Assembly (NCBI RefSeq): GCF_018070075.1
Contig: NZ_JAGPXE010000004.1
Location: 310,001-374,000, forward strand
From: Saccharopolyspora endophytica
Lineage (GTDB): Bacteria > Actinomycetota > Actinomycetes > Mycobacteriales > Pseudonocardiaceae
Direction of reading: 5' to 3'
DNA length: 64,000 bases
The position numbers and the translations under genes were made by a program. Below, in pieces: positions 14,041-41,014 of the stretch. Within the stretch, counting starts at the first letter, position 1. The number at the start of each line of letters is the position of its first letter. The notes below the pieces were generated by a model. The model had not been told where the DNA came from and did not search any database. It saw nothing but the letters and a program-made list of their open reading frames with translations.

Positions 14041-14203
14041 CTGAAGCGGCGATAGCCGCTGCTCCAGGTGTGGGACTCAGCCCGCACCGCCGCGGGTTCT
14101 CAGCGGTTCTCTGGTGAGGACAGCCGAAGCGCCGTGTATCGGCATACATCAGCTTCGGCTCCCGGAGCCAGAGGGCCGCTGAGGTTCCGCCACCCGCACC
14201 GCT
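14041..14203 (-). repeat. Structured 3'-UTR repeat, copy 1
   Basis: Begins 22 nt after the stop of the M23 peptidase gene on the same strand. Direct repeats CCCGCACCGC flank the core (14081-14090 and 14193-14202). Main stem: 14099-14114 with 14168-14183 (16 bp with two G-U type pairs). Second stem: AGCCGAAG (14122-14129) with CTTCGGCT (14153-14160). Apical stem: GTGTAT (14134-14139) with ATACAT (14144-14149) around a 4-nt loop. An extra hairpin AGCGGC/GCCGCT lies at 14045-14060. No protein-coding signal. Confidence 0.85.
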
Positions 14204-14225
14204 GAGCAAAACAACCACCGACACC

Positions 14226-15011
14226 TCAAGCGACGTCGATGCCTCGTTCTCGGAGCCAGGGCAGCGGATTGATCTTCGTCCCGTCTTCGTGGACCTCGAA
14301 GTGCAGGTGAGGACCGGTCGACTGGCCGCGGTTGCCCATGGTCGCGATCTGCTCGCCTGCGCCGACGCGCTGACCCTCGTCGGCCACGATCGTGTTGACG
14401 TGGCCGTAGACGGTGACCGTGCCGTCGTCGTGCTGCACCCGGACCCACATGCCGAAGCCGCTGGCAGGGCCCGCGTCGATGACCTCACCGGGCGCCACCG
14501 AGTAGATCGGCGTGCCGATGCTGTTGGCGATGTCGATGCCCATGTGGCTGCTGCCCCAGCGGGAGCCGAAGCCGGAGGTGTACCGGCCTTCGGCGGGGCT
14601 GTGGAAGCCGGCGGCCTTGCGCGCCTTCTCCTCGGCGGCCCGCTTCGCCTCGGCCTCGGCCTGCGCGGCCTGGGCTGCCGCCTGGCGGGCGGCCTCCTCG
14701 CGGACGATGCGCTCGGCTTCGATGGCCTTGGCCTTGGCGAGCTCCTGCGCTTCGGGCTGCTGTTCGGGTACTTGGGCCTTGAGCAGCCGAACGGCTGCGG
14801 GGCTGTTCTGAGTGCCGGTGATCGCGGTGCTCAGGTTCTTGGTCCCGGCCAGGGGCCGGACGTCGCGCTGCTGGTCGGAGTTCGCGTTCGCGGCCAGGGG
14901 CTGACCCACTGCCGCGAACGCGCCTCCGGCCACCACCGCAGCCACAACTTTGTTGCGGAGCGGAAGGCCGGCTGTCGGGGGGAGCCGGTCTTCCTTGCGA
15001 TGCTTGCCCAT
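14226..15011 (-). CDS. Exported M23-family metallopeptidase
   Basis: 261 aa from ATG at 15011, preceded by GGAAGG; an upstream extension of the frame has no ribosome site. Signal peptide about 1-45 (basic start, VVAAVVAGGAFAAVG core, cleavage near ANA). An Ala/Glu-rich coiled-coil segment (about 80-140) precedes the LytM domain with zinc ligands in HMGIDIA and GPHLHFEVH. Likely a D,D-endopeptidase or a LytM-type activator acting in the wall; all expected ligands are present, so activity is plausible. Followed 22 nt later by structured repeat copy 1. Confidence 0.9.
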   Translation of the reverse strand: MGKHRKEDRLPPTAGLPLRNKVVAAVVAGGAFAAVGQPLAANANSDQQRDVRPLAGTKNLSTAITGTQNSPAAVRLLKAQVPEQQPEAQELAKAKAIEAERIVREEAARQAAAQAAQAEAEAKRAAEEKARKAAGFHSPAEGRYTSGFGSRWGSSHMGIDIANSIGTPIYSVAPGEVIDAGPASGFGMWVRVQHDDGTVTVYGHVNTIVADEGQRVGAGEQIATMGNRGQSTGPHLHFEVHEDGTKINPLPWLRERGIDVA

Positions 15012-15553
15012 CACTGCCTTCCGTCGGGGGTCGGTCCGGCCACTCCCGCGTTTCGGGGGTGCGGGCAAGAGCTCCTCGGGGAAAGAGATCTTGTCGTGAT
15101 CGAACCGTGACGTGCAGATCAGAACGTAGCTGACAGTCACGGCAGGCCGCAACCGATGGCTCACCCAGCAGATGGTTCACCCGACTGAGCCATACAAACC
15201 GTGACTTTCAGTGACTGACTGAGATCGCCGTTCGATAACATCAACAGCCGGACCAACCTGCGGAGGAACCGTTTTCGGCAACCGGTCCACATCACCGCCG
15301 GGGCCTTGATTCGAACAGTTCGCGCAGGTCACGCGGATGATCAAAGGTAGATCGCCAAGGCGCGCAACGGCTGTCAGATCAACTACCCGCAGGTCGATCG
15401 TCCACAATGGACACCGAGGGGCCGGGGCCGGGTCAAGATCAATTCGGCCAGATGGTGGCCTTCGACACAAGCCACCCTCGATCGGCCTAGAGATCCCTCC
15501 CGCACTCTGGGAGACGCTGCCACTCGAACGCGGGATCTGTTTGACTGTCCCCC
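15012..15553. other. 542-bp gap between divergent M23 peptidase and leader/TauE units
   Basis: Should hold the promoters for the peptidase (minus) and the leader-TauE transcript (plus). I find no supported gene. A c-di-AMP (ydaO) riboswitch was looked for upstream of the peptidase because such genes often carry one; only scattered short matches were seen, so it is not called. Confidence 0.5.
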
Positions 15554-15646
15554 ATGACGCCCGGTGATCAGTGGCGGCTGCTGTCGCAGCGCCTCCACGT
15601 CGACCTGCGCCGCGTCACCTCCGCACGGTGTCGGCGCTCGCGCTAG
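15554..15646 (+). CDS. Cysteine-responsive leader peptide, 30 aa
   Basis: A 30-codon ORF from ATG at 15554 to TAG at 15644-15646, ending in RLHVDLRRVTSARC plus a short basic tail. The HVDL-R-x(2)-S-A-x-C core is the hallmark of actinobacterial leader peptides found ahead of sulfur-assimilation and sulfur-transport genes, where a terminal Cys codon is thought to sense cysteine supply through translation. It lies 97 nt before the TauE/SafE carrier gene. The peptide is unlikely to function as a product; its translation is the signal. Confidence 0.85.
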   Translation: MTPGDQWRLLSQRLHVDLRRVTSARCRRSR

Positions 15647-15742
15647 TCCCTAGTCGCGCCCACCTGTCCGCAGCACCATCCCCGCCACGAGCGCTCGCGC
15701 CGCGAACTCGTCGCGTCTCGGATCTTCCCGTACGGAGACATC

Positions 15743-16648
15743 GTGCAAGCATTCCTGATCTTCGCGATCGGCGGTTTCATCGCGCAGCTGGTCGACGGCT
15801 CGCTCGGCATGGCCTACGGCGTCACCTCGACGACCATCCTGCTGACCGCCGGGCTCACGCCCGCGCTGGCCTCCGCCTCGGTGCACCTCGCCGAGATCGG
15901 AACCTCGGTCGCCTCCGGCCTCTCGCACTGGAGGTTCGGCAACGTCGACTGGAAGATCGTGCTCACCCTGGGCGTGCCGGGCGCGATCGGCGCCTTCCTC
16001 GGCGCGACCGCGCTGAGCAACGTCTCCACCGAGGCCGCCGAGCCCTGGATGTCGACCATCCTGCTCGCGCTGGGCGTCTACGTGCTGCTGCGCTTCGCCA
16101 TCCGGCCGCTGCGCCGCCGCCAGCTCACCGGCGTCAGCTCCAAGCTGCTGGCTCCGCTGGGCCTGGTCGCCGGGTTCGTGGACGCCACCGGCGGTGGCGG
16201 CTGGGGCCCGGTCGCCACGCCCACGCTGCTGAGCACCGGCAAGGTCGAGCCGCGCAAGGTCGTCGGCTCGGTCGACACCAGCGAGTTCCTGATCGCGGTG
16301 GCGGCGAGCCTCGGCTTCCTGTTCTCGCTGGCCGACCAGAAGCTGTCCTGGATGACCGTGGGCGCGCTGCTGCTGGGCGGTGTGCTCGCCGCGCCGCTGG
16401 CGGCCTACCTGGTTCGGGTCGTGCCGATGCGGCTGATCGGCGTCGGAGCCGGCGGCCTGATCGTGCTGACCAACGCGCGCACGCTGATCAAGGCGTTCGA
16501 TCTGCCCGCCCCGACCCCCGCGGTGGTCTACGGAGCGATCGTCGTGACCTGGGTGGCCGCGCTGGCTTACACCATTCGGGTGATCGTCAACGAGCGCCGC
16601 GAGATCGACGACTTCGAGGAGGAGGCCCCGGCCACGGCCCAGGGCTGA
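15743..16648 (+). CDS. TauE/SafE-family sulfite or sulfur-compound carrier
   Basis: 301 aa, GTG start at 15743 with CGGAG eight bases upstream. Eight or so transmembrane helices in two related halves, each with the family glycine/proline signature: GGFIAQLVDGSLGMAYGVTS near the N-terminus and GLVAGFVDATGGGGWGPVATP near residue 135-160. Family members move sulfite, sulfoacetate or related organosulfur anions. The upstream cysteine leader peptide supports a sulfur role. The direction of transport cannot be read from sequence. Confidence 0.85.
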   Translation: MQAFLIFAIGGFIAQLVDGSLGMAYGVTSTTILLTAGLTPALASASVHLAEIGTSVASGLSHWRFGNVDWKIVLTLGVPGAIGAFLGATALSNVSTEAAEPWMSTILLALGVYVLLRFAIRPLRRRQLTGVSSKLLAPLGLVAGFVDATGGGGWGPVATPTLLSTGKVEPRKVVGSVDTSEFLIAVAASLGFLFSLADQKLSWMTVGALLLGGVLAAPLAAYLVRVVPMRLIGVGAGGLIVLTNARTLIKAFDLPAPTPAVVYGAIVVTWVAALAYTIRVIVNERREIDDFEEEAPATAQG

Positions 16649-16840
16649 GCAGGCACGGGACGGTTCCCACCCCGGATCCGACTCCCGCGCGGGACGCGAC
16701 GGACCGCCTGGTTTGGGAGGAAAACCGTCCGTTTGACCGGATCCGGACGCCGGGTGATGCTCGTTAACCACCGTTCACGGCGGGTTCGAGATTTACCCAC
16801 GTGCCGTATCGCCGTGATCATCCGCGAGGGCTAATGTTCG

Positions 16841-16910
16841 AAGCTGCCGCGTGGAAGCCCCCCGACACGCGGTAAGGAGCCCCGGGCCGAACAGCCCGGG
16901 GCACCCTTCT
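16841..16910 (+). ncRNA. 6C small RNA
   Basis: Two hairpins separated by GGTAAGGAG. The first stem is CCGCGTG/CACGCGG with a loop containing CCCCCC. The second is GCCCCGGGC (16879-16887) with GCCCGGGGC (16894-16902), which also serves as a terminator. This matches the actinobacterial 6C RNA layout. A candidate -10, TAATGT, is at 16832-16837. The RNA is encoded between tauE and the converging sulfoquinovose-synthase-like gene; the second hairpin may terminate both. Confidence 0.75.
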
Positions 16911-16927
16911 GAATTCGCCGCTTCCGG

Positions 16928-18157
<1,230 letters not shown>

Positions 18158-18238
18158 TCAACAGTCCAAGAAGACCACGCACAGCGATCGGTATCGTTCC
18201 GCGCAGCACACTTGCGCATGAACTTCTCAGGAGGACAC

Positions 18239-18697
18239 GTGGCGCAGCCGATGATCACCGGCCGTGCTCGCTACTGGCGGTTGATCAGTCGGTTCGCGGC
18301 GGCCTCGGTCGTGGCCACCGGCATCAGCCAGCTCGTGTTCCTGCTGTCCTACTCGCTCGGAGCCACACCGGTCGTCTCGACCGTGCTGGCCTGGCTGGCC
18401 GGCGCGATCCCGAACTTCACCCTCAACCGTCGCACCTGGGGCGGCGGTGGGCGCGGTGCGCTGCGCGGCGAGCTCCTGCGCTACGGCGCGATCTCGGTCG
18501 GAACGGCGCTGCTCGCCGCGGGCGCCACCCACCTCGCCGAGATCGCGGCGACCTCGGCGTTCCCCGACACCCGGCCCGCTCAGGTGGCCGTGGTGTGGGG
18601 CGCCTTCATCGGGACCTACGCGGTGATGTTCGTGGTCAAGTTCGTCCTGATCGACAAGCTCGTGTTCACTCGCCGACCGCAGCAGGACGCTCGCTGA
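18239..18697 (+). CDS. GtrA-family membrane protein
   Basis: 152 aa from GTG at 18239 with AGGAGG five bases before; an upstream extension of the frame is unsupported. Four predicted transmembrane helices with the family hallmarks (RFAAASVVATGISQLVFLL, WLAGAIPNFTLNRRTWG, and VKFVLIDKLVF near the end). GtrA proteins are thought to flip lipid-linked sugars or assist membrane glycosyltransferases. It is divergent from the SQD1-like gene and convergent with the glycosyltransferase fusion gene, whose 3' end it overlaps by 32 bp. Confidence 0.85.
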   Translation: MAQPMITGRARYWRLISRFAAASVVATGISQLVFLLSYSLGATPVVSTVLAWLAGAIPNFTLNRRTWGGGGRGALRGELLRYGAISVGTALLAAGATHLAEIAATSAFPDTRPAQVAVVWGAFIGTYAVMFVVKFVLIDKLVFTRRPQQDAR

Positions 18698-20948
18698 CCC
18701 GCTCCACCGCCGGGGCGTCCGCGCGACCGGTGCCGCGGCGCTCGCGCCACCACGTGCCGAGCACGACCTTGGCGTAGCGGTAGCCGTAGCTGAAGCTGGA
18801 GCCCTTCTTGCTCTCCCCCGCCGTGCGCTGCAGCATCCGCATCGGCTGCTCCACCGCGCGGTAGCCGTGGCTGAGCAGGCCCACCAGCAGCTCGGAGGAC
18901 TGGTACTGCGGCTGCCGCAGGGTCACCGAGTTCGGCACCTCCACCCGCATGCCGCGGAAGCCGAACGAGGTGTCGGTGATCCGCTGCCGGGTCAGGGCGC
19001 TGACCACCCACGCGAACACGTAGGTGCCGATGCGGCGGATCAGCGCCGGGCGCTCGTTGCTGCCCAGCCGCCGCGAGCCGCTGACGAAGTCCGCGCGGCC
19101 CTCGATCAGCGGTTCCAGCAGCTTCGGCAGCTCGGAGATGTCGTACTGGCCGTCGGCGTCGGTGGTGATCACGTAGCGCGCGCCGCGCTGCGCGGCCAGC
19201 CGGTAGCCCAGCCGCAGCGCCGCGCCCTGGCCCCGGTTGTTCGGCGCCACGCAGGTGTGGGCACCGTGCTCCAGCGACACCTCGGCGGTGCGGTCCTTGG
19301 CACCGTCGACGACCACCAGGGTGTCGACGTCCAGGTCGCAGCTGCGGGACGGGACGGCGTCGAGCACCTCGCCGATCGACTCCTCCTCGTTGTAGGCGGC
19401 GATCAGCACGACCACCGGCGCGAACCGGTGCTCGCCGTAGCGCGACGCGTACTCCTCCAGCGCGTCCCGGTCCACCTCGTCGGGGAAGGTCGTCAACATC
19501 TGGCACTCCTCGGAGGGCGTCGATCGGGGTGTGGAACGGATGGCCTCGCGGCCGAAGATCGCGGTGGCGCCCAGCGCGCCGGCGAGCGGGATGAGCACGA
19601 GTCCGGGCAACTGGTAGCGCCAGGAGAATTCCATGACCGATGCGGTCAGCAGCGAGGTGGTCACCAGACCGGCCGGCAGCAGCGTCACCGCGCGCAGCCC
19701 GCTGCGCCTGGCCCGTCCCGCGCCCAGCACCGCCGCGCTCGCGAGCAGCAGCGCACCGCCGAGAAGCAGGCCCGGGGTGTAGCCGCCGCCGAGCTGGTAG
19801 CCGCGCAGGAACGAGGTGAGCTCCGGATCCGCGTGCAGCCCGACGCCGTCGTAGAGCTCGGCCCACTCCTGCGCGTACCACTCCGGCGCGTACATCGGGT
19901 GGTCGAGCTGGAACTGCCAGCGGTCCAGCGGCACGTCGCCGACCGCCTGGGTGCGGGTGGGGGCGAAGCCCTTGAGGAAGTCGCCGGCGATGCCGCCTGC
20001 GATGTCCAGCGGCTGGTTGAGCACGACCTTCCGGGTCAGCGACCGCTGCGCCGCGTTGACGTCCATGCCCTCGGGCAGCAGCTTGTCGACGTTGGCCTGG
20101 ACGTCCCAGAGGTGCAGGTAGAAGTCGATGCCGATCTTCTCGCGGTGCTCGCGCGGCTCGTCGGGGCACAGCAGCTGCTCTTCGCGCGTCAGGTCCAGCT
20201 CGTCGCAGTTCGCCACGACCGCCGCGCGCCCGAACAGCACTCCCCCGCCGCCGGAACCGCCGACGCCGAACTTCCCCGCGACCAGCGCGCCGTAGAGCGC
20301 GTAGACCAGCACGAGCCCGCCGAACCCGGCGACGAGCGCACCGGTGGCGATCAGCCGGGGCCGCCAGCCCCCGCGCGGGCGCAGACCGGCGGCCAGCAGC
20401 ACGAACACGGCCGCGGGCAGCACCAGCGTCAAGCCCACCGAGCGCACCATCACCGACAGCGCCAGGACGCCACCGGCCACGGCGGCGACCTTCGGCGTCG
20501 GCGGGCCCCACCAGCACAGCAGGTACACGGCGACCAGCAGCAGCACCTGGAACAGCAGGTCGGACATGATCAGCTGCTCGATCTGCAGCTGATAGGCGTC
20601 CAGCAGCACCGGCGCGGCGGCCAGCGCGGCCAGCCACTCGCGGACCCCGAAGCGGCGCAGCAGCACGTACACGCCGACGCCCAGGCCGATGCCGAGCAGG
20701 TGCTGCACGACCGCGACCCCGGCCAGCCCGCCCAGGCTCAGCAGCGGCCACAGGAACCACTCGTACCCGACCGGGTTGATGCCGCCGGGGTGGAACACGC
20801 CGACGTCGTCGAGGTAGCGGAACGAGTCGATGTAGAGCAGTGCGGGCCGGTAGGCGAGCTGCGTGATGATCCGCAGCACCAGTCCGGCCAGCACCAGCAG
20901 CGCCAGCAGCCAGTGCCGGCGCAGTGCGCGCGTGAGCGCGGCCGTCAC
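18666..20948 (-). CDS. Fused membrane glycosyltransferase (GT-C-like) and GT2 dolichyl-phosphate-type glycosyltransferase
   Basis: 760 aa from GTG at 20948, overlapping the upstream epimerase stop by four bases. Residues 1 to about 480 are a multi-spanning membrane domain with an N-terminal YIDSFRYLDD-type acidic motif as in GT-C enzymes. Residues about 500-740 are a GT2 domain like dolichol-phosphate mannosyl/glucosyltransferase: VVLIAAYNEEESIGEVLDAV, TLVVVDGAKD, ITTDADGQYD and DTSFGFRGMRVE. No stop separates the two, but an internal ATG at 19499 has GAGGAG seven bases upstream and would make a free 277-aa GT2 protein. Fusion, dual initiation or a lost stop are all possible. Confidence 0.75.
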   Translation of the reverse strand: MTAALTRALRRHWLLALLVLAGLVLRIITQLAYRPALLYIDSFRYLDDVGVFHPGGINPVGYEWFLWPLLSLGGLAGVAVVQHLLGIGLGVGVYVLLRRFGVREWLAALAAAPVLLDAYQLQIEQLIMSDLLFQVLLLVAVYLLCWWGPPTPKVAAVAGGVLALSVMVRSVGLTLVLPAAVFVLLAAGLRPRGGWRPRLIATGALVAGFGGLVLVYALYGALVAGKFGVGGSGGGGVLFGRAAVVANCDELDLTREEQLLCPDEPREHREKIGIDFYLHLWDVQANVDKLLPEGMDVNAAQRSLTRKVVLNQPLDIAGGIAGDFLKGFAPTRTQAVGDVPLDRWQFQLDHPMYAPEWYAQEWAELYDGVGLHADPELTSFLRGYQLGGGYTPGLLLGGALLLASAAVLGAGRARRSGLRAVTLLPAGLVTTSLLTASVMEFSWRYQLPGLVLIPLAGALGATAIFGREAIRSTPRSTPSEECQMLTTFPDEVDRDALEEYASRYGEHRFAPVVVLIAAYNEEESIGEVLDAVPSRSCDLDVDTLVVVDGAKDRTAEVSLEHGAHTCVAPNNRGQGAALRLGYRLAAQRGARYVITTDADGQYDISELPKLLEPLIEGRADFVSGSRRLGSNERPALIRRIGTYVFAWVVSALTRQRITDTSFGFRGMRVEVPNSVTLRQPQYQSSELLVGLLSHGYRAVEQPMRMLQRTAGESKKGSSFSYGYRYAKVVLGTWWRERRGTGRADAPAVERVSERPAAVGE

Positions 20949-21892: not shown

Positions 21893-22012
21893 GGGCCCGA
21901 CTCTAACCGGGGCGTCGGATCACGATCCCCGAGCCCTTCGGTTTCGCCATCGCCCCAGGACGGGAAGTTTCAACCTCCCAGGAGGTGACGTTTCAGCGGC
22001 ACTTCCGCGCCG

Positions 22013-22045
22013 GTGGTGGCGGTTCCGGCGGACAACCGCCACCAC
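22013..22045 (-). terminator. Stem-loop after the SRPBCC gene
   Basis: 12-bp perfect inverted repeat GTGGTGGCGGTT/AACCGCCACCAC (22013-22024, 22034-22045) with a 9-nt loop, 7 bp past the SRPBCC stop. Confidence 0.65.
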
Positions 22046-22052
22046 GCGGAGC

Positions 22053-22487: not shown

Positions 22488-22510
22488 GCTTCCTCCTGCG
22501 TTCGGTGTCG

Positions 22511-22678
22511 AAGTGGCGGAGCCACTTTCTCCTTCGGTGAGTTCCCCCGCAGCTGGCACCGCCGGGGGTTCTCCAGCGGCTTCGTGGCGAGCACGCCGCG
22601 ACGCCGTGTAGTGGACATACATCAGGAGCGGCGCGCGGAGTCCACGGAGCTGCTGGAGGTTCCCCCACCCGCACCGCC
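22511..22678 (-). repeat. Structured 3'-UTR repeat, copy 2
   Basis: Starts 25 nt after the TIM-barrel gene stop. Main stem 22571-22587 with 22642-22658, where CTCCAGC pairs with GCTGGAG instead of the CTGAGC/GCTCAG seen in other copies, a compensatory change. Apical stem GTGTAG (22606-22611) with ATACAT (22617-22622), 5-nt loop. GCACCGCC repeats at 22556-22563 and 22671-22678. Distal hairpin AAGTGGC/GCCACTT with a GGA loop at 22511-22527. Confidence 0.85.
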
Positions 22679-22703
22679 GAGCAAGATGAGCACAACACAC
22701 CTT

Positions 22704-23534
22704 CTAGAACTTGATGTTGGTGAACGCCTTCGTCTGCTCGGTCAGGGCTTCTTCGGTGGGGAGTCGTTCCATGCTGCTGGCGCCGTAGAAGCCGTGGCAG
22801 CGCTGGGTTTTCGACAGCACGTAGGAGGCGTCGGAGGGCGTCGCGATCGGCCCGCCGTGGCACAGCACCAGCACGTCCTCGCGGATCTCGGCCGCGGCCT
22901 GCGACCACTCGTCGATGAGCCGCACGCAGTCGTCGAGGCTCTTGGCGGTCTCCGCGCCGATCGCGCCGCCGGTGGTCAGCCCCATGTGGCAGACGATGAT
23001 GTCGGCGCCCGCCTCGGTCATCACCCGGGCGTCGTCGGCGGAGAACACGTAGGGCGTGGTGAGCAGGTCGGCCTCGCGGGCCGCGGCGACGAGCTCGACC
23101 TCCAGGCCGTAGCCCATCCCGGTCTCCTCCAGGTTGGCCCGGAAGGTGCCGTCGATGAGCCCCACGGTCGGGAAGTTCTGGATGCCCGCGAAACCGAGAT
23201 CGCGCAGCTCGCGCAGGAAGTGCTCGCGCAGCATGAACGGGTCGGTTCCGTTGACCCCGGCCAGCACGGGCGTGCGCTGCACGACCGGCAGGACCTCGCG
23301 GGCCATCTCGACCACGATCTCGTTGGCGTTGCCGTAGGCCAGCAGTCCGGCCAGCGAGCCGCGCCCGGCCATCCGGTAGCGACCGGAGTTGTAGATGACG
23401 ATCAGATCGATGCCACCGGCTTCCTCGCACTTGGCGGACAGCCCGGTGCCGGCGCCGCCGCCGACGATCGGTTCACCGCGCTGGGCCTTGGAGTGGAACT
23501 CGCGGAGCAGTTCCGCGCGGTCGAATCCGTTCAT
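22704..23534 (-). CDS. PEP hydrolase/TIM-barrel family protein (UPF0261 partner)
   Basis: 276 aa from ATG at 23534. A TIM-barrel of the phosphoenolpyruvate hydrolase-like family, near PEP mutase/isocitrate lyase: [81 protein letters not shown] and the C-terminal [11 protein letters not shown]. The reaction is not established for this family. In fungi and plants the domain is often fused to the Tm-1-like domain encoded by the gene just upstream (13-nt gap), so the two probably act together. Confidence 0.82.
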
Positions 23535-25082: not shown

Positions 25083-25202
25083 CATCACTCCCGATGCATC
25101 GAGGCCGTTGTCCCCCAGGGTACCGACAAATCACCCGCGACTCACGACTCACCACGTCGAACGGAGTGGCGACATTCCGGTGACGTTCCGGTTCCGCCAA
25201 GC

Positions 25203-25364
25203 ATGCGGCGGAGCCGCATCCTCTTTCGCCACCTGAGCAACAGGCACCGCCGCGGGTTCTGAGCGGCTTCGTGGCGAGCACGCCGCGACGCCGTGTATTG
25301 GACATACATCAGGAGTGGCGCGCGGAGACCACGGAGCCGCTCAGGTTCCGCTACCCGCACCGCC
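25203..25364 (-). repeat. Structured 3'-UTR repeat, copy 3
   Basis: Starts 24 nt after the acyl-CoA dehydrogenase stop. Main stem 25261-25274 with 25329-25342 (14 bp, one G-U type). Apical stem GTGTAT (25293-25298) with ATACAT (25304-25309), 5-nt loop. GCACCGCC repeats at 25244-25251 and 25357-25364. Distal hairpin ATGCGGC/GCCGCAT with a GGA loop at 25203-25219. Confidence 0.87.
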
Positions 25365-25388
25365 CAGCAGAACAGCCACGGACGACTA

Positions 25389-26567
25389 TCAGCCCAGGAC
25401 GCCGCTGACGCTGGCGTGGCCCTTGAGCACGTTGCGGGCGATGGTGCGGCGCTGGATCTCGTCGGTGCCCTCGAAGATCCGGAGGAGTCGCAGGTCGCGG
25501 TACCAGCGCTCGACCGGGAGCTCCTTGGTGTAGCCCATGCCGCCGTGGATCTGCAGGACCCGGTCGACGATCTGGTTGGCGTGCGTGGCGCCGAACAGCT
25601 TGGCGATGGACTGGGCGTGCCGGGAGTCCATGCCCTGGTCGACCTGCCACGCGGCCTGCAGGATCAGCCAGCGCAGCGCCTCGATCTCCACCGCCGAGTC
25701 GGCGATCATCCACTGGATGGCCTGCCGGTCGGCGATCGGAGCGCCGAAGGTCTCGCGCTGCTGGGCGTACTCCGAGCCCATCTCCACCAGCCGCTCGCAG
25801 GCGCCCAGCGCCGCCGCGGGCAGCAGGTAGCGGCCACGGCCGATCCACTGCATGGCCAGCCCGAACCCGTTGCCGACCTCGCCGAGCACGTTCTCGGCGG
25901 GCACCCGGACGTTGTCGAACACCAGCGCGGCCGGCTGGCGCTCGTCGGGGCCCATGATGTCGATCGGCTCGGACTTCCAGCCCATGTCGCGGTCGACGAG
26001 GAAGCACGTGACACCGCCGTTGGCGCCCTTCTCCCGGTCGGTGACGGCGAAGACCATGACGAAGTCGGCGTCGATGCCGCCGGTGATGAAGGTCTTCTCG
26101 CCGTTGATGACCCAGTCGTCGCCGTCGCGCACGGCGGTGGTGCGCAGGTTCTTGGCGTCCGATCCCGCGCCGGGCTCGGTGATGGCGAAGCAGGACTTGC
26201 GGGTGCCCTCGATGGTCGGCAGCAGGTAGCGCTGCTTCTGCTCCTCGTTGGCGTAGTAGAGGATGTTGTCGGCGTAGCCGCCGAAGCGGAACGGCACGTA
26301 GGTGCGGCCGAGCTCGACCTCGATCAGCGCCGTCATGACCGCCGAGAGGTTCATGCCGCCGTACTCCTCGGGCGTCTGCACGCCCCAGAATCCGGCCTCC
26401 TTGGCCTTGTCCTGCAGTTCCTTGAGCTCGTCCTTGGTGAGACCGCGCTGACCCGCCCGCTCTCTGCGCAGGACCTCCGGCTCCAGCGGCATGAGCTCCC
26501 GCTGGACGAAGTTGCGCACCCAGTCGCGGATGTCGCGCTCGGTCTCGGAGAGCGAGAAGTCGACCAT
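25389..26567 (-). CDS. Acyl-CoA dehydrogenase family protein
   Basis: 392 aa. Flavin-dependent fatty acyl-CoA or amino-acid acyl-CoA oxidation. Family motifs: CFAITEPGAGSDAKNLRT, WVINGEKTFITGG, the FDNVRVP loop, QIHGGMGYTKELPVERWYRD, and FEGTDEIQRR with the catalytic glutamate. The chain-length class is not resolvable by eye. Divergent from a TetR gene, with a perfect palindrome between them, so probably repressed by it and induced by an acyl-CoA ligand. Followed 24 nt later by structured repeat copy 3. Confidence 0.9.
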   Translation of the reverse strand: MVDFSLSETERDIRDWVRNFVQRELMPLEPEVLRRERAGQRGLTKDELKELQDKAKEAGFWGVQTPEEYGGMNLSAVMTALIEVELGRTYVPFRFGGYADNILYYANEEQKQRYLLPTIEGTRKSCFAITEPGAGSDAKNLRTTAVRDGDDWVINGEKTFITGGIDADFVMVFAVTDREKGANGGVTCFLVDRDMGWKSEPIDIMGPDERQPAALVFDNVRVPAENVLGEVGNGFGLAMQWIGRGRYLLPAAALGACERLVEMGSEYAQQRETFGAPIADRQAIQWMIADSAVEIEALRWLILQAAWQVDQGMDSRHAQSIAKLFGATHANQIVDRVLQIHGGMGYTKELPVERWYRDLRLLRIFEGTDEIQRRTIARNVLKGHASVSGVLG

Positions 26568-28044: not shown

Positions 28045-28245
28045 GATGACGTCTCGCGGGAGAGACCTCGTCCTCGCCGGACGAGGCGCCGAAGGAGCAA
28101 TACTCCCCAGTAAACTCTCAGGCACCGTTACCGCAGGACACCAGGCGAATCACGGAGAAAAGCAGGAGCATCGCGCTTCTCGCCCACGGTGCAAACCACC
28201 CTGCCGGGTGGTGAAACTCTCAGGCCAATGACTCCGGGGAGACCC
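28045..28245 (+). promoter_or_regulatory. Tandem glycine riboswitch
   Basis: Two aptamer-like units upstream of gcvT. The first has GCGGGAGAGACC, GCGCCGAAGGAGCAA and AAACTCTCAGGCACC; the second has GGTGCAAACCACCC, GTGAAACTCTCAGGCC and CCGGGGAGACC. Two AAACTCTCAGGC cores, about 110 nt apart, are typical of cooperative glycine aptamers. A CCCGACC/GGTCGGG hairpin at 28248-28276 may be the expression platform. Likely turns on gcvT-glyA when glycine is abundant. Confidence 0.88.
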
Positions 28246-28363: not shown

Positions 28364-29467
<1,104 letters not shown>

Positions 29468-33337: not shown

Positions 33338-33582
33338 GCGTTCGAGTCTAGTCCCACCCGTGCGACTCACCGCACTCCGCTTAACGGGTGGATGCGCACG
33401 CCTGCCATCGGCGGCCAGCGCTTTCACCACTGGTTTCGCGCTGATGCATCCATTAGAGTCCAGACACATGAATGAGACTCACGTGTGCGCCAGGCCGCCA
33501 ACCCCCGGCCGCGGAGTCCGAATCTCGTTGCACCACCAGGCTCACTAGGGGTGGTTGGTGTTTCAGGTGTGGGACTCAGCCC

Positions 33583-33702
33583 GCACCGCCGCAGGTTCGT
33601 CAGCGGTTTCGTGGCGAGTACGCCGCGACGCCGTGTATTGGCATCCATCAGGAGCAGCGCACGGAGACCACGAACCGCTCAGGTTCTGCCACCCGCACCG
33701 CC
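33583..33702 (-). repeat. Structured 3'-UTR repeat, copy 4
   Basis: Starts 25 nt after the DedA stop. Main stem 33601-33614 with 33668-33680: CAGCGGTT-T-CGTGG with CCACG-AACCGCTC, where GGTT/AACC replaces GGCT/AGCC of other copies (compensatory) with one bulge. Apical GTGTAT (33633-33638) faces ATCCAT (33643-33648), one mismatch. GCACCGCC repeats at 33583-33590 and 33695-33702. Left flank shares GTGTGGGACTCAGCCC with copy 1. Confidence 0.85.
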
Positions 33703-33727
33703 ACGCAAAGTGGTCCCCCAACAGTTC

Positions 33728-34390
33728 TCAGGCCGCGGTCTCGACGTCCTCTGCTTGCGTCTCGGCGGTCACGACCTGGCTGCGCGGGCGACGGCGCTTC
33801 CACGCCCAGACACCCACACCGACCAGCACGACCGCGATCGCCAGCACCCAGCTCGCGCGGCCGAGCATCGACTCGACGTACTTCGCCGACGCTCCCGCGG
33901 CCCAGCCGATGCCGACGTGGGTGGCCGACCAGGCCACGGCACCGATCACCGACGAGACGAAGAACCGCGGGTAGGACATGCCGCTGGTACCCGCCGCGGC
34001 GGGCAGCAGCGTCCGCACCACCGGCAGGAACCTGCCCACCAGCACCGCGCCGATCCCCCAGCGCCGCAGCAGCGTGCCCGCGCGGTCCCAGTGGTGCTGG
34101 CCGAGCTTGCGCACCACCTTCGTCTCGCGCATCTTCAGCCGGTACCGGCGGCCGAGCCAGAACCCGATGTTGTCGCCGATCGCCGCGCACACCGCCACGG
34201 TTCCGGCCAGCGTCAGGAAGAACCCGAGGTCGTTCACCGCTGCCGAGGCCACCAGCAGACCCGCCTCGCCGGGGACCAGGAACCCCAGGCCGATGGTGCA
34301 CTCACCGAGCACCAGAGCTCCGGTGGCCAGCACGAGCAGCGGCCGGGGCAGACCGGCGATCATGGCCAGGGCGTCGCTGATGAACGTCAC
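33728..34390 (-). CDS. DedA-family membrane protein
   Basis: 220 aa from GTG at 34390, selected because GAGGAG lies nine bases upstream and the hydrophobic domain starts there; the frame stays open to 34543. Signature blocks: FLVPGEAGLLVASAAVNDLG, GDNIGFWLGRRYRLKM, GRFLPVVRTLLPAAAGTSGMSYPRFF. DedA proteins are implicated in lipid-carrier (undecaprenyl phosphate) transport and membrane homeostasis. The last 20 residues are charged. Followed 25 nt later by structured repeat copy 4. Confidence 0.82.
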   Translation of the reverse strand: MTFISDALAMIAGLPRPLLVLATGALVLGECTIGLGFLVPGEAGLLVASAAVNDLGFFLTLAGTVAVCAAIGDNIGFWLGRRYRLKMRETKVVRKLGQHHWDRAGTLLRRWGIGAVLVGRFLPVVRTLLPAAAGTSGMSYPRFFVSSVIGAVAWSATHVGIGWAAGASAKYVESMLGRASWVLAIAVVLVGVGVWAWKRRRPRSQVVTAETQAEDVETAA

Positions 34391-34518
34391 GGGATCGGGC
34401 TCCTCGGCTGCGGTAGCTCGGACGGCGGTCACGCTACCGGGGAGCAGATGAGCTGTTCTCAGGTATGGCACCGATACGCCAACCGAAGCCGAAAGCGTTG
34501 TCCCTAGGGGGAACCGGA

Positions 34519-36090: not shown

Positions 36091-36218
36091 GCCCGCTCCT
36101 CTCCGAGATCACGGAGACTAGGCACCCCAGATGTGAAAGGTCAACAAAACCAACCCAAAAGCCGCAAAAGAAAAACCACCCCACCCCCGCACCCGGAACC
36201 CCGCAGCGATCAGGCCCC

Positions 36219-36545
36219 GGAATACCGCAGTAATCCGGGACCTGAATACGGCAGTAATCCGGACCCGGACCCAGAACCGAAGTTAGCCGACTGCGACCGA
36301 AGTGACCGCAGCCAGCGGACGCGGCTGCCGCGAGGACGGAATACCGCAGTAATCCGGGACCTGAATACGGCGGTAATCCGGGTGCGAACCCGGAACCGAA
36401 GTCGGCCGACTGCGACCAGAGGGACCGCAGCCAGGGAACGCGGCTGCCTGGGGACGGAATACCGCAGTAATCGGGGGTCTGAATACTGCGGTATTCCGGG
36501 TGGAGTGAGGTTCGGGGTCAGCCGACTGCGATTGAGGTGGCCATG
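36219..36545. repeat. Tandem repeat of about 119 bp with palindromic submotifs, reaching into lysE
   Basis: Units begin at about 36219, 36338 and 36456 (periods 119 and 118 bp). Each has GGAATACCGCAGTAAT, then GAATACGGCAGTAATCC (or a close relative), then a GAACCGAAG-AGCCGACTGCGA segment and a GCGGCTGCC spacer. The third unit is partial and runs into the 3' end of the LysE gene, where the same AGCCGACTGCGA stretch encodes the last residues and stop. Two full units plus this partial one. Confidence 0.85.
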
Positions 36546-37126
36546 GCCAGGAGGGCGCCGCCGCAGCAGCGCTCGAAGACCGCGCGGCGCTTGGGGCTCG
36601 CCAGGAACGCGGCCAGTCGACCGACGGACGGGACGACGACCAGCCACCACGCGGCGAAGGCCATCACCGCGACGCCGCTGAGCAGCGCGGCCTGCGGCAT
36701 CGGTGCCGCGCTCGGGTCCATCGCCTGCGGCAGCAGCGTCAGGAACGTCAGCATCACCTTCGGGTTGAGCACGTCGGTGAGCAGCCCGCGCAGGAACACC
36801 CCGCGGCCGGAACGCGGCTGCTCGACCGCGGTCTCGGCCGGGTGGGAACCGGCGTGGCGCAGCATCTGCAGCGCCATCCACCCCAGGTAGGCCACACCCA
36901 GCCCCTTGACCACGAACAGCGCCGCCGGCACGGCCGCGACCAGCGCCGACAAGCCGAGGGTGGCGGCAGTGGCGTGCAGCAGCAGCCCGCAGTTCACGCC
37001 CGCCGCGGCCAGCCATCCGTACCTGCGACCGCTGGCCGCGTTGCGGGTCACCAGGACGAAGTCGGGACCGGGGACCAGCACGATGACCAGCAGCGCCAGC
37101 AGGAACGACCCCCAGGCGATGTGCAC
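36518..37126 (-). CDS. LysE/RhtB-family amino-acid exporter
   Basis: 202 aa, GTG at 37126 with AAGGAG seven bases upstream. Six membrane helices; family signature VLVPGPDFVLVTRNAASGRRYG at the N-terminus and LLTDVLNPKVMLTFLTLLPQ in the middle. Exports amino acids or derivatives. Divergent from an Lrp/AsnC gene, the classic LysG-LysE-like arrangement, so it is likely induced by its substrate through that regulator. Its 3' end lies in the tandem repeat array. Confidence 0.85.
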   Translation of the reverse strand: MHIAWGSFLLALLVIVLVPGPDFVLVTRNAASGRRYGWLAAAGVNCGLLLHATAATLGLSALVAAVPAALFVVKGLGVAYLGWMALQMLRHAGSHPAETAVEQPRSGRGVFLRGLLTDVLNPKVMLTFLTLLPQAMDPSAAPMPQAALLSGVAVMAFAAWWLVVVPSVGRLAAFLASPKRRAVFERCCGGALLAMATSIAVG

Positions 37127-37218
37127 GACGAACTCCTTCGAAATTTCGGGGAAGCAGATGCGAAGATTCTCCGACGATGGTTCGCCTGCTTTCGAGCTCC
37201 CACGTAGGATGTTCGGTT

Positions 37219-37722
37219 ATGAGTGAATCCGTAGAACTGGATTCGGTTGACTGGTGGATTCTGGAGGAGTTGCAGAACGACGCGACCCTGCCGAACCGCA
37301 CCCTCGCCGAACGGATCGGGCTGGCACCGTCCAGCTGCCTGCAACGCGTCCGCAGGCTGCGAGAACAGGGAGTGATCACCGGGTCGCACATCGACGTCGA
37401 CCCGGCCTCGACGGGACTGGCGCTGGAGGCGGTGGTGGCGGTCAACGTCCGCCCGCACACCCGCCAGATCGTGGATCAGTTCCGCGAGTTCGTCATGGCC
37501 CAGCCGGAGACCCGCTCACTGCTGCACGTGAGCGGCCAAGCCGACTTCCTGCTGCACGTCGCGGTGGCCGACACCAAGCACCTGCAGGAGTTCCTCGTCG
37601 ACAAGCTCGCGTCCCGAACCGAGGTCCGCAACTTCACCAGCTCGATCGTCCTGGAACAACTCCGCACCAGAGCCCTCACAGCCCCCAAGCACCTGCGCCC
37701 CAAACGCCGCAGACGCACGTGA
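37219..37722 (+). CDS. Lrp/AsnC-family transcriptional regulator
   Basis: 167 aa from ATG at 37219. Winged helix at the N-terminus (DSVDWWILEELQNDATLPNR, IGLAPSSCLQRVRRLREQGVI) and a C-terminal RAM ligand domain (VVAVNVRPHT, VSGQADFLLHVAVAD). Basic tail RPKRRRRT. Regulates the divergent exporter most likely; amino-acid sensing is inferred. Confidence 0.87.
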   Translation: MSESVELDSVDWWILEELQNDATLPNRTLAERIGLAPSSCLQRVRRLREQGVITGSHIDVDPASTGLALEAVVAVNVRPHTRQIVDQFREFVMAQPETRSLLHVSGQADFLLHVAVADTKHLQEFLVDKLASRTEVRNFTSSIVLEQLRTRALTAPKHLRPKRRRRT

Positions 37723-37740
37723 GCACCGAAGGCACTTCGT

Positions 37741-37775
37741 CAAGTGCGGGACTCAGCTCGCACCGCCGCCACCCC
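37741..37775. repeat. Solo flank of the structured repeat (possible empty site)
   Basis: AAGTGCGGGACTCAG followed by CTCGCACCGCC matches the left flank of copies 1 and 4 (GTGTGGGACTCAGCCCGCACCGCC, written here in parts), but the stem-loop core is missing and GCCACCCC follows. Either a remnant or an uninserted target site. Confidence 0.6.
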
Positions 37776-37826
37776 AGGCATCAGACCCACCGACACCACC
37801 ACGACCCGGCCCCCGCAGGTGATCAC

Positions 37827-37945
37827 CCGAACTTCAGTGGAACTCGGACACCCGATTTCAGTGGAAACCCGGAACCTGACTTCAGTGGAACTCGAGAACC
37901 CGATTTCAGTGGAAGTCCGGGATCTGATTTCACTGAAATCGGGGG
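37827..37945. repeat. Five units of the TTTCAGTGGAA repeat
   Basis: Units of 22-25 bp (starts near 37827, 37852, 37875, 37899, 37922), each CCGA-TTCAGTGGAA-TCGG-like. The last is in the inverse sense. Each is an imperfect palindrome. Convergent gap between the Lrp and TesB genes. Confidence 0.85.
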
Positions 37946-37989
37946 GCTGCACGGGAGTGGGCGCGTGGCGGAGGCGGGACGACGTCAGG

Positions 37990-38934
37990 TCAGTCGTTGA
38001 CGCGGAGGAGGCCCTCTTGGACGACCGTGGCGACCAGCTGGCCGTCCTGGGAGAAGAAGCGGCCGGTGGCCAGACCGCGACCGCCGGAGGCGCTCGGCGA
38101 GGCGCAGTCGTAGAGGAACCACTCATCAGCGCGGAAGCGGCGGTGGAACCACATCGCGTGGTCCAGGCTCGCGCCGACCACGTTGTCCAGGCCCCAGTAG
38201 ACGCCGTGCCGCGCGAGGGGCGCGTCCAGCAGCGTCATGTCGGAGGCGAAGGCGGCGATGCAGACGTGCAGCAGGTGGTCGTCCGGCACGGCCAGGGCGC
38301 CGTCGGCGCGCATCCACACCTGGTTGCGGGCCTCGCGCGGGCCGTTCTCGCGGCTCACCCACGGCGGCTCGGTGACGTAGCGGACGTCGATCGGGCGGGG
38401 CTGCGGCGGGCCGAGCTTCGACAGCGACTCGCCGAGCCGCTCGCCGAACGTCGGCAGCGATTCGGGGTCGGGGACCTCGGGCATCGGCTCGGCGTGGTCG
38501 ATGCCGTCCTCGTCGAGCTGGAACGACGCCGAGAGGGAGAAGATCGTCTTGCCGCGCTGCAGCGCGACCACGCGGCGCGTGGTGAACGAACGACCGTCAC
38601 GGGTGCGGTCGACCTCGTAGACGATCGGGATGCTCGGGTCGCCGGGCCGGATGAAGTACGCGTGCAGCGAGTGCACCCGTCGCTCCTCCGGCACCGTGCG
38701 ACCGGCGGCGACCAGCGCCTGTCCGGCGACCTGGCCGCCGAAGACGCGAATGGTCGAGGAAGCGGGGCTGACACCGCGGAAGATGTTCTCCTCGATGCGC
38801 TCCAGGTCCAGCAGCGCGACCAGGCTGTCCAGCACGGGTTGGCCGTGCGGCACGCCGTTGACGTCCACCGGAACCTCGCCCTGCAGGTGGGTTCCGGCCG
38901 GGTCGGCTGCTGCGGCCCTGGCCGCTTCGGTCAC
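37990..38934 (-). CDS. tesB: Acyl-CoA thioesterase II
   Basis: 314 aa, GTG at 38934 after GAGGAG. Double hot-dog fold: N-terminal ENIFRGVSPASSTIRVFGGQVAGQALVAA, then SLHAYFIRPGDPSIPIVYEVD, and C-terminal GASLDHAMWFHRRFRADEWFLYDC, where Asp/Gln/Thr catalytic positions are expected. Hydrolyses medium and long acyl-CoA. Next to pyruvate kinase (66 nt), same strand; no obvious shared pathway. Confidence 0.9.
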   Translation of the reverse strand: MTEAARAAAADPAGTHLQGEVPVDVNGVPHGQPVLDSLVALLDLERIEENIFRGVSPASSTIRVFGGQVAGQALVAAGRTVPEERRVHSLHAYFIRPGDPSIPIVYEVDRTRDGRSFTTRRVVALQRGKTIFSLSASFQLDEDGIDHAEPMPEVPDPESLPTFGERLGESLSKLGPPQPRPIDVRYVTEPPWVSRENGPREARNQVWMRADGALAVPDDHLLHVCIAAFASDMTLLDAPLARHGVYWGLDNVVGASLDHAMWFHRRFRADEWFLYDCASPSASGGRGLATGRFFSQDGQLVATVVQEGLLRVND

Positions 38935-39000
38935 TGCGTGCTCCTCGGGTAGTGCGCCCGACCGGCCGGACGGGAGCTGGTGCTCCCGTCCGAAGGCCGA

Positions 39001-40422
39001 TCAGACGTGGTCTTCTTCGCCCAGCCGGTGCACGCGGATGAGGTTGGTCGAACCGACCGTGCCCGGCGGCGAACCGGCGACGACCACGACCATGTCGCCG
39101 CGCTGCGACCGGCCCAGCGACAACATCGCCTGGTCGACCTGCCGCACCATCTGGTCCGTTGTGTCCACCTTAGGCACCAAGAACGTTTCCGTCCCCCAAG
39201 TGAGAGCGAGCTGACTCCGCACGGACTCCTCGGGGGTGAACGCCAGCAGCGGCAGGCGGGTGTGCAGTCGCGCGAGCCGGCGCACGGTGTCGCCGGACTG
39301 CGTGAAGGCCACCAGAGCCTTGGCGTTGAGGCGCTCGCCGATGTCGCGCGCCGCGTAGGAGATCACGCCGCGCTTGGTGCGCGGGACGTGGCTCAGCGGC
39401 GGCGGCGTGGGCGAACCGGATTCCACGGCCTCGACGATGCGGGCCATGGTCTGCACGGTCTCGATCGGGTAGCGGCCGACGCTGGTCTCGCCGGACAGCA
39501 TCACCGCGTCGGCGCCGTCGAGGACCGCGTTGGCGACGTCGGAGGTCTCGGCCCGGGTCGGGCGCGAGTTCTGGATCATCGAGTCCAGCATCTGGGTGGC
39601 CACGATGACCGGCTTGGCGTTCTCCCGCGCGATGCGGATCGCCTTCTTCTGGACCAGCGGGACGTGCTCGAGCGGGAGCTCCACGCCGAGGTCACCGCGG
39701 GCGACCATGACACCGTCGAAGGCCAGCACGATGGCTTCGAGGTTGTCCACCGCCTCCGGCTTCTCCAGCTTCGCGATGACCGGTGCGCGGCGGCCGACGC
39801 GGTCCATGACCTGGTGGACCAGGTCGATGTCGGCGGGGCTGCGCACGAACGACAGCGCGATGAAGTCCACGCCCAGCTCGAGCGCGAACTCCAGGTCCTC
39901 GATGTCCTTCTCGGACAGGGCCGGCACGGAGACGTCCATGCCCGGCAGGGAGATTCCCTTGTTGTCGGAGACGGGACCGCCCTCGGTCACCTCGCACACG
40001 ACATCGTTGTCCTCGACGGAGGTCACGACCATCGCGACCTTGCCGTCGTCGACCAGGAGCCGGTCGCCCTTCTTGGCGTCCTCGGCCAGGCCCTTGTAGG
40101 TGGTGGACACCCGGTCATGCGTGCCCTGCACGTCATCGACCGTGATGCGCACGACGTCGCCGGTTCGCCACTCGACCGGTCCGGCTGCGAACTTCCCGAG
40201 CCGGATCTTCGGTCCCTGCAGGTCTCCTAGGATGCCCACGGCGCGGCCGGATTCCTTCGCCGCGGCCCGGACCATGTCGTAGACCTGCTGGTGGTCGGCG
40301 TGGCTGCCGTGGCTGAAGTTCAGCCGGGCGACGTCCATTCCGCTGCTGACGAGCTCGGCCACCTTCTCCGGATTGGCGGTGGCGGGGCCCATGGTACAAA
40401 CGATCTTGGCTCGTCGACTCAC
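39001..40422 (-). CDS. pyk: Pyruvate kinase
   Basis: 473 aa, GTG at 40422. No good ribosome site; TACGCT ends nine bases before the start, so a leaderless mRNA is possible. Begins RRAKIVCTMGPAT; active-site motifs RLNFSHGSHADH, VIAKLEKPEAVDNL (catalytic Lys), GVMVARGDLGVELPLE and QMLDSMIQNSRPTRAETSDVANAVLDG. C-terminal allosteric domain complete. Last step of glycolysis. Confidence 0.95.
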   Translation of the reverse strand: MSRRAKIVCTMGPATANPEKVAELVSSGMDVARLNFSHGSHADHQQVYDMVRAAAKESGRAVGILGDLQGPKIRLGKFAAGPVEWRTGDVVRITVDDVQGTHDRVSTTYKGLAEDAKKGDRLLVDDGKVAMVVTSVEDNDVVCEVTEGGPVSDNKGISLPGMDVSVPALSEKDIEDLEFALELGVDFIALSFVRSPADIDLVHQVMDRVGRRAPVIAKLEKPEAVDNLEAIVLAFDGVMVARGDLGVELPLEHVPLVQKKAIRIARENAKPVIVATQMLDSMIQNSRPTRAETSDVANAVLDGADAVMLSGETSVGRYPIETVQTMARIVEAVESGSPTPPPLSHVPRTKRGVISYAARDIGERLNAKALVAFTQSGDTVRRLARLHTRLPLLAFTPEESVRSQLALTWGTETFLVPKVDTTDQMVRQVDQAMLSLGRSQRGDMVVVVAGSPPGTVGSTNLIRVHRLGEEDHV

Positions 40423-40487
40423 ATCACGTCAGCGTAGTCTCTCGCCGCCCGGGTGCAGCACTCAGCCACGCCCCAAGAAGCTGATCG

Positions 40488-40844
40488 GTGATTTCGTTGC
40501 TGGATCATTACAGAAACCAGCTCAAACGGCTTCCGCTCCTGATCGTGCTCCTGATCAGCGTGATCGTGCTGTTCACCCCGGAATCGGGCGTGCCCACGGC
40601 TCCGCCGGGGACCGACAAGGTGGTGCATTTCACCCTTTTCGCCGCGCTGGCGATCACCGGTCGCCTCGCCGGGTGGCGCACCTCGTCGCTGCTGCCCGCG
40701 CTCGTCGCCTACGCAGCCCTCTCGGAGGTGCTGCAGGGCGTGCTGCCGCTGGGGCGCAGCTGCGAACTCCTCGACGGCCTCGTGGACGTCGCGGGCGCCC
40801 TGGCCGGCTGGGCGGCGTTCGCCCTGAGGTCCAAGGCCCGTTGA
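40488..40844 (+). CDS. VanZ-like membrane protein
   Basis: 118 aa from GTG at 40488; no strong ribosome site. Three to four membrane helices. VanZ-type motif pieces: DKVVHFTLFAALAITGRL, then YAALSEVLQGVLPLGRSCE and DGLVDVAGALAGW. VanZ relatives are small membrane proteins linked to teicoplanin resistance in enterococci, but most have unknown roles. It is convergent with the DUF2461 gene across repeat copy 5. Confidence 0.75.
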   Translation: MISLLDHYRNQLKRLPLLIVLLISVIVLFTPESGVPTAPPGTDKVVHFTLFAALAITGRLAGWRTSSLLPALVAYAALSEVLQGVLPLGRSCELLDGLVDVAGALAGWAAFALRSKAR

Positions 40845-40849
40845 GGCAC

Positions 40850-41014
40850 GCGGCGGCGCCGCATCCTCTTTTCACCACCCTGGCAGCTGGCACCGCCGCG
40901 GGTTCTGAGCGGCTCTCTGGGGAGGACAGCCGAAGCGCCGTGTATTTGGCTGGCATACATCAGTCTCGGATCCCGGAGCCAGAGAGCCGCTCAGGTTCCG
41001 CCACCCGCACCGCC
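40850..41014 (-). repeat. Structured 3'-UTR repeat, copy 5
   Basis: Starts 30 nt after the DUF2461 stop. Main stem GAGCGGCTCTCTGG (40907-40920) with CCAGAGAGCCGCTC (40979-40992), perfect. Apical GTGTAT (40940-40945) with ATACAT (40955-40960) around a 9-nt loop. GCACCGCC repeats at 40890-40897 and 41007-41014. Distal hairpin GCGGC/GCCGC at 40850-40862 followed by CATCCTCTTTT. Confidence 0.87.

Follow-up and report, generated by a model that had tools for sequence, protein, structure and literature searches.

Which kind of element recurs five times, with a strongly structured sequence, within a single stretch of a Saccharopolyspora genome, and what keeps its structure intact? Saccharopolyspora is the genus making erythromycin and spinosyn, and the stretch of Saccharopolyspora endophytica DNA analysed here (64,000 nucleotides, contig NZ_JAGPXE010000004.1, positions 310,001 to 374,000, referred to below as the window) carries five copies of a hairpin-forming element of ~190 nt. 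An original prediction, made from the letters of the window alone, had proposed selection on an RNA or hairpin structure. We find strong support for selection on the structure, while the prediction missed that the copies belong to a high-copy mobile family which varies at the same site between relatives and lies beside the stop codons of unrelated genes. In our reading, to which we assign a probability of roughly 0.6, the family consists of non-autonomous mobile hairpin elements, REP/ERIC-like in kind, which occur in Saccharopolyspora and in part of its family.

The element has a conserved fold

The core of the element runs from the first GCACCGCC through the last AGCA-like end and comprises 126 model positions. 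It forms a long imperfect hairpin composed of a lower stem, an upper main stem, a purine-rich internal loop, a short stem and the apical stem GTGTAT/ATACAT (14134-14149 on the + strand in copy 1); the internal loop itself contains a two-pair helix, one pair of which covaries. Within the lower stem lies a near-invariant motif, GGTTC/GGTTC (in copy 1 with its 5' side at 14095-14099 on the + strand and its partner at 14183-14187), which can be read as G-C, G-U, U-U, U-G and C-G. Its G-U and U-G pairs occur in 44/44 rows of the own-genome alignment described below, and in 262 and 264 of 275 copies. In most copies the core is preceded by a 5' hairpin, and it is followed by a tail of ~15-20 nt. The flanking repeats, the long main stem and the apical stem that had been described earlier are all seen in the five window copies, and the paired main-stem changes quoted there are visible once these copies are aligned. 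GCACCGCC stands at both ends of each window copy, except for the 3' end of copy 1, which has GCACCGCT.

The 5' hairpin is more variable. It had been credited to four of the five copies, and the usual type is in fact missing from copy 4; judging from its sequence, however, this copy is able to form an alternative GGTGTGGG/CCCGCACC hairpin in its place. The 5' ends were compared in 134 copies of the genome to which the window belongs (the own genome), a set from which five of 139 matches, at or below 60 bits, were excluded and which leaves ~14 of the 148 copies counted below outside. Among these 134, 32 match CARGYGYGGGAC, 68 are of a second type, none match both and 34 match neither. A perfect 6-bp stem is present in the 5' hairpin of 68/134 copies, compared with a mean of 0.65 after shuffling, and seven different stems were each seen at least five times.

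Conservation of the fold by selection is strongly supported by covariation. An alignment of 45 own-genome copies (44 distinct; nine of 54 copies, divergent or carrying inserts, were left out) shows changes on both sides in 16/35 pairs, and 96.6% of its cells pair. A second alignment, of 27 copies, spans several genera: it combines the five window copies with six from G010 and G020, two low-copy genomes of Saccharopolyspora, together with 16 copies from six other genera (11 genomes). Here 23/35 pairs are changed on both sides, four of the six apical pairs among the pairs that do so across genera, and the covariation score reaches 0.456 against 0.130 for shuffled alignments and at most 0.084 for slid partners, in an alignment that was fitted to the covariance model and is hence biased towards the structure of that model. 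None of five measures of covariation was reached by any of 500 shuffles in either alignment; the shuffles ignore relatedness among the copies, and slid partners also score far lower. In a third set of 277 distinct copies (from 283; 15/298 aligned matches with at least 25 gaps were left out), 13 structural pairs outscore every column pair lying more than three columns from a structural one.

The pairs also reveal which strand folds. G-U exceeds A-C by ~12-fold among 9547 pair cells (1211 versus 99), and by ~7-fold (685 versus 99) without the two near-invariant G-U pairs; by individual pair, G-U exceeds A-C in 17 and A-C exceeds G-U in 10, the latter with small numbers. This excess identifies the + strand of the original prediction as the folded strand. 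The folded molecule may be RNA or a single DNA strand, as both fit the data.

Paired changes could in principle arise by correction of a DNA quasi-palindrome, that is, by template switching within the hairpin and not by selection. Block changes on both arms are in keeping with such a process, and so is a derivative at 6293-6470 of locus L059, which has a long perfect palindrome as its right half. Correction of this kind would, however, erase G-T and T-T mismatches, yet GGTTC/GGTTC persists; furthermore, one position has U-G more often than any other pair (24/44), and many pairs switch between Watson-Crick states. Template switching could therefore be responsible for some of the paired changes but not for the persisting G-U and U-U, and as an account of the covariation as a whole we regard it as very improbable. 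The L059 derivative, in which the palindrome has replaced the right half while the 3' tail resembles that of other copies, could itself be a template-switch product.

The family is abundant in Saccharopolyspora and extends beyond it

The resemblance among the copies far exceeds chance: a profile built from the five gave 57 matches in part of the own genome, 54 of them above 60 bits and the five window copies included. A covariance-model search, of the kind proposed with the original prediction, found the family across Saccharopolyspora and related genera. In the own genome (G000, 7.17 Mb) it detects at least 148 copies, with E-values from 5.4e-28 to 2.4e-6, a lower bound drawn from the best 150 candidates scored. 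At an E-value of 0.001, 21/22 Saccharopolyspora genomes match, and 15 of the 21 same-genus relatives have at least 81-85 matches each among the best 85 scored. Few or no copies are found in G019 (0), G020 (7), G018 (9) and G010 (10), even at E-values up to 1.

A distribution confined to the genus had been suggested by a set of 19 outside genomes, none of which matched; this was overturned by the larger family sample, in which 58/275 genomes outside Saccharopolyspora carry the element. Under strict filters, 79/297 genomes and 15/46 genera of that sample match, several of them with a single strong copy. A scan of named genomes gave at least 109 loci, and all of the 80 listed belong to Saccharopolyspora. 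Viral contigs, searched with one exact pattern, gave no match, nor did plasmids and phages when copy 5 served as the query.

The family is apparently unnamed so far. Rfam gave no match over the window copies, copy 1 returning only three chance-level matches at E-values up to 5, and the element did not appear in searches of open-licence papers for repeats or structured RNAs of Saccharopolyspora and extragenic palindromes of Amycolatopsis; a description elsewhere is possible. The earlier statement that no named family was known agrees with both searches.

Copies lie beside the stop codons of unrelated genes

In order to place the copies relative to genes we used the 134 copies, contained in 804 kb of the own genome, one of which has no called neighbour on one side. 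A gene caller trained on the longest open reading frames (ORFs) assigned the 133 others to 52 sense tandem, 38 divergent, 30 antisense tandem and 13 convergent positions and was rejected, as we judged it to pick antisense frames. The counts given here rest on a custom gene caller seeded from codon-position GC content, which is supported by Pfam matches on the called strand for 8/8 window neighbours and 9/9 genes tested in other genera.

A gene 3' end is adjoined by 131 of the 133 copies: 44 lie in convergent gaps, 58 are tandem antisense, 29 tandem sense and 2 lie in divergent gaps, while the same stretches contain 112 convergent, 440 tandem and 106 divergent gaps in all. The spacing is tight. 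In 79/103 cases no more than 30 nt separate the 3' end of the core from an antisense stop codon, and in 51/73 a sense stop is within 70 nt of its 5' end. For a finer test the element was assumed to begin 45 nt upstream of the core and to end 16 nt downstream of it. In tandem gaps that then leave 150 nt or more of room, 18/30 antisense copies (1.8 expected) and 6/14 sense copies (0.7 expected) are within 15 nt of the stop, and 0/44 copies are within 15 nt of the next start. The hugged stops comprise 50 TGA, 23 TAG and 6 TAA (all genes: 474, 102 and 42), so that no single stop sequence is required. The 17 genes inspected beside or near copies belong to unrelated families, with no transposase among them by Pfam.

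The same arrangement is found in other genera, where 16/16 full copies (14 distinct sites in six genera, drawn from the best-scoring places listed in the family sample) have an antisense stop codon at the 3' end of the core or within 32 nt of it; in one of them the stop overlaps the last bases of the core. A further foreign fragment (L282, 18786-18820, 22.3 bits) was excluded from this count. Because the spacing is tight in most own-genome copies and in all 16 foreign ones, it becomes testable whether such repeats hug stop codons by targeting or because selection leaves them nowhere else.

A single folded strand whose 3' end adjoins the stop codon of an antisense gene also recalls the attC recombination sites of integrons. 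An R-box pair (GTTRRRY / RYYYAAC, in both orders and on both strands) is nonetheless present in 0/134 copies, and the neighbours in the window region are ordinary genes in conserved order, which leaves attC-like sites with next to no probability.

Sites are variably occupied in close relatives

Syntenic regions were taken from ten genomes of the genus, with some flanks not located in some relatives. Every one of the five window sites is empty in some of them. Besides the window, G007 has a copy at site 1; G009 and G011 have one at site 2; G009, G016 and, in decayed form, G007 at site 3; and G009 at site 4, from which a copy in G012, its left flank not located, lies ~0.3 kb away. Site 5 is occupied in the window alone among nine relatives for which both flanks were found. 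As sites are empty in some relatives, the elements are mobile, and recently so judging by their patchy presence. At site 2, G007 holds only a remnant resembling the 5' hairpin (L056, near 15100), probably left from a deleted copy.

Copies at the same site are frequently not each other's closest relatives. For 27 of the 31 same-site pairs compared, ten or more copies located elsewhere are more similar than the same-site partner, while the flanks of such pairs are often ~88-95% identical; two of 33 pairs, with identical copies and flanks of more than 99.5% identity, were skipped. Sites therefore seem to have been re-occupied or their elements replaced.

Copies are mostly oriented against the replication fork

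Orientation was tested in four genomes, three of which have most copies pointing against the fork. The copy strand differs between contigs of the own genome (p 0.0002). Eight of its contigs have a clear majority gene strand, from which fork direction was deduced, so that 29/44 convergent and 68/87 tandem copies could be used: in convergent gaps 22 copies point against the fork and 7 with it (p 0.008), in tandem gaps beside co-directional genes 44 against it versus 13, and in those beside head-on genes, a small sample, 7 versus 4. Relative to dnaA and an approximate chromosome length, 64/97 copies of G014 (97 of 150 positions) and 69/106 of G006 are oriented against the fork (p 0.002 in each). 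A replication-linked orientation is, however, a property that Gomez et al. are said to have claimed in 2014 for bacterial transposable elements generally, and the fork bias alone is therefore no proof of a single-strand mechanism.

Candidate mobilising enzymes and known repeat systems

We looked for families that might mobilise the element in 13 genomes of the genus, eight of them copy-rich (at least 64 matches). The Y1 transposase family PF01797 occurs in 2/13 and is absent from 6/8 of the copy-rich genomes; the reverse transcriptase family PF00078 likewise occurs in 2/13 (G000 and G021) and is absent from 7/8. Y1 and reverse transcriptase were set aside as a common mobiliser, being missing from most copy-rich genomes. 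The Y2 transposase family PF04986, looked for with a derivative of IS91 in mind, had no match in 15 genomes, though the controls were silent too. G021 has 14 reverse-transcriptase matches, some of them clustered, and only 33 matches to the element.

A seeming composite autonomous element in L059, with 5' and 3' parts 3 kb apart, turned out to be two separate partial copies with apparently unrelated ORFs between them. The scan for split copies also showed 17 solo ends, of which the 14 viewed appear truncated, short or decayed. In L044, short derivatives at 140-230, 3000-3340 and 10350-10650 retain the 5' part of the element only.

Mobility might instead proceed through RNA, a transcript being copied into DNA with a primer strand that ends just beyond the stop codon, such that the 3' junction would be fixed and the 5' end variable. 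The G-U asymmetry is RNA-like, and the 3' junction does lie at a fairly constant distance from antisense stops while the 5' ends are more variable. Sense-oriented insertions, however, hug stops as well, and do so by their 5' end, and PF00078 is confined to G000 and G021 among the 13 genomes and found in none of the seven other copy-rich ones; we consider this route decidedly improbable. Improbable as well is the idea that the element targets gene 3' ends via expression, for instance at mRNA ends where the ribosome terminates, with the folded RNA or single strand copied near stops together with replication and with neither a common reverse transcriptase nor Y1 involved.

Among described repeats, REP and REPIN elements (RAYT, TnpA-REP) are similar in placement. 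REPs are described as palindromic sequences of 20-40 bp, present in high copy and lying mostly downstream of coding regions, convergent gaps included (PMC3733652). According to a study cited in PMC12306157, many REPs of E. coli lie 1-20 nt from the ORF end, although the count made in the same article finds 446/4,072 within 15 nt of it. The present element is likewise palindromic, of high copy number and found downstream of genes. It is, however, much longer than the 20-40 bp of REPs (PMC3733652), measuring ~190 nt, and it has two hairpins as well as internal motifs that are conserved. The GTAG tag of REPs lies near the 5' stem in only 3/134 copies, and CGTCAGGC occurs in 44/134 but separated from the stem. 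The Y1 gene (RAYT) that goes with GTAG REPs belongs to PF01797, missing from six of the eight copy-rich genomes; the same source describes CGTC-tagged REP families as being without a known transposase as well (PMC3733652). REP elements thus share the placement, while the element fails the tests of size, tag and transposase.

ERIC (RU-1) and RU-2, of 127 and 168 bp, are characterised in PMC2759123 as small mobile sequences in many enterobacterial intergenic regions. The element is similar to them in size, in being mobile and in being intergenic, a likeness by description only. To our knowledge no mobiliser has been identified for ERIC or RU-2. For IS200/IS605 elements, PMC6006769 describes a transposase that recognises secondary structures at the ends and insertion that is coupled to replication; their transposase is of the Y1 type, which the majority of the copy-rich genomes lack. 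Against a derivative of a retroelement, retron or group II intron stands the absence of reverse transcriptase from seven of the eight. As for miniature inverted-repeat transposable elements (MITEs) of DDE transposases, the obvious outer repeats of the element are direct and not inverted, and a CTAG duplication is seen at one site only; terminal inverted repeats were not looked for systematically. The family adds a large, strongly structured member to the short palindromic mobile repeats, and a comparison of copy-rich genomes with close relatives holding between zero and ~10 copies could be used to trace its mobiliser.

Weighing mobility against a service to the host

In our reading, an enzyme acting in trans would recognise the folded + strand, as RNA or single-stranded DNA, with recognition including the near-invariant non-Watson-Crick motif GGTTC/GGTTC. 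Copying into DNA by this enzyme would take place close to stop codons and be coupled to replication, and selection for recognition would keep the fold intact in the multiplying copies. As a side effect, copies between genes could plausibly act as terminators or as barriers at mRNA 3' ends.

Several observations weigh against this picture. No mobilising gene was found, the families searched being Y1, reverse transcriptase and, with silent controls, Y2; nor did the scan for split copies, over ~1.2 Mb, show an autonomous copy whose ends match. CTAG stands on both sides of the element at one site only, with a weak duplication or none at the other sites viewed. The orientation bias is not significant in G003 (24/42, from 42 of 115 positions listed) or in the lower-scoring part of G006 (34/56); moreover, under this bias the lagging-strand template contains the folded strand's complement, and a simple IS200-like scheme with the folded strand active would give the opposite fork polarity. 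In 24/103 cases the antisense gene terminates over 30 nt away from the core, and TAG is over-represented at hugged stops (23/79 versus 102/618), for which mobility as outlined gives no explanation.

The fold can, as same-site comparisons suggest, matter after insertion too. A copy occupying the same site in G082 and G114, with flanks 98.8% identical, differs by one change in the unpaired 3' linker and, within the apical stem, by a compensating replacement of T-A with G-C; a second copy common to these two genomes shows one substitution and a 2-nt indel with no compensation. Across eight close same-site pairs, 24 changed pairs remain paired and 11 break. The compensating change and this ratio argue for some constraint after insertion, against which the decayed copy at site 3 in G007 speaks.

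Such constraint is what one would expect if the element served the host at gene 3' ends, as a bidirectional terminator or a barrier at mRNA 3' ends whose fold is selected at each site. The copies do follow stop codons, with a third of the 133 in convergent gaps and two in divergent ones. Yet presence varies among close relatives, G019 is without a match, the neighbouring genes are unrelated, and the folded strand is antisense to the gene on its 3' side in 102/133 copies; nor would a plain terminator need the near-invariant GGTTC/GGTTC. Taken with the decay at site 3, this makes a purely host-serving element unlikely, and we retain mobile, non-autonomous hairpins as the preferred reading.

The five copies in the window and their neighbourhood

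All five copies were located in the sequence where they had been predicted, on the + strand. The positions given earlier hold, but the copies extend further on the 3' side, where conservation fades ~15-20 nt beyond the core. In each case an antisense stop codon lies 17-25 nt from the core. Copy 1 (14043-14225, 145.5 bits) has its 5' hairpin at 14045-14060 and its core at 14084-14208, and its 3' tail reaches the stop at 14226 of an M23 peptidase gene on the - strand (14226-14936), 17 nt from the core. Copy 2 (22510-22703, core 22556-22683) faces the stop codon at 22704 of a PEP-hydrolase-like gene (22704-23534, - strand), at 20 nt, and copy 3 (25198-25388, core 25244-25369) that at 25389 of an acyl-CoA dehydrogenase gene (25389-26567, - strand), at 19 nt. 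Copy 4 (33552-33727, core 33583-33707), which is without the usual 5' hairpin, is followed at 20 nt by the stop codon at 33728 of a VTT domain gene (33728-34390, - strand). Copy 5 (40842-41044, core 40890-41019) lies between two gene ends: the stop codon at 41045 of a DUF2461 gene (41045-41710, - strand), 25 nt from the core, and a sense stop codon, that of a VanZ-like gene ending at 40844.

A possible truncated copy, retaining the 5' end only, is found at 37721-37769 on the + strand; its match is weak (18.3 bits) and it adjoins the stop of a + strand gene ending at 37722.

The window contains further features of note. At 28047-28244 Rfam identifies a tandem glycine riboswitch, whose two aptamers score 61.2 and 43.2 bits; it precedes a + strand gene at 28397-29467, presumably a glycine-cleavage gene. 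Imperfect repeats of ~118 bp at 36191-36550 are made of GAATACCGCAGTAATCCGG-like units; the 19-mer GAATACCGCAGTAATCCGG occurs once each in two further own-genome loci, L098 and L041. Directly after the truncated element, 24-bp repeats with TTTCAGTGGAA fill positions 37831-37950; this 11-mer was counted 20 times in the sequence searched, with 14 of these occurrences spread over nine further own-genome loci, and is perhaps a second dispersed repeat.

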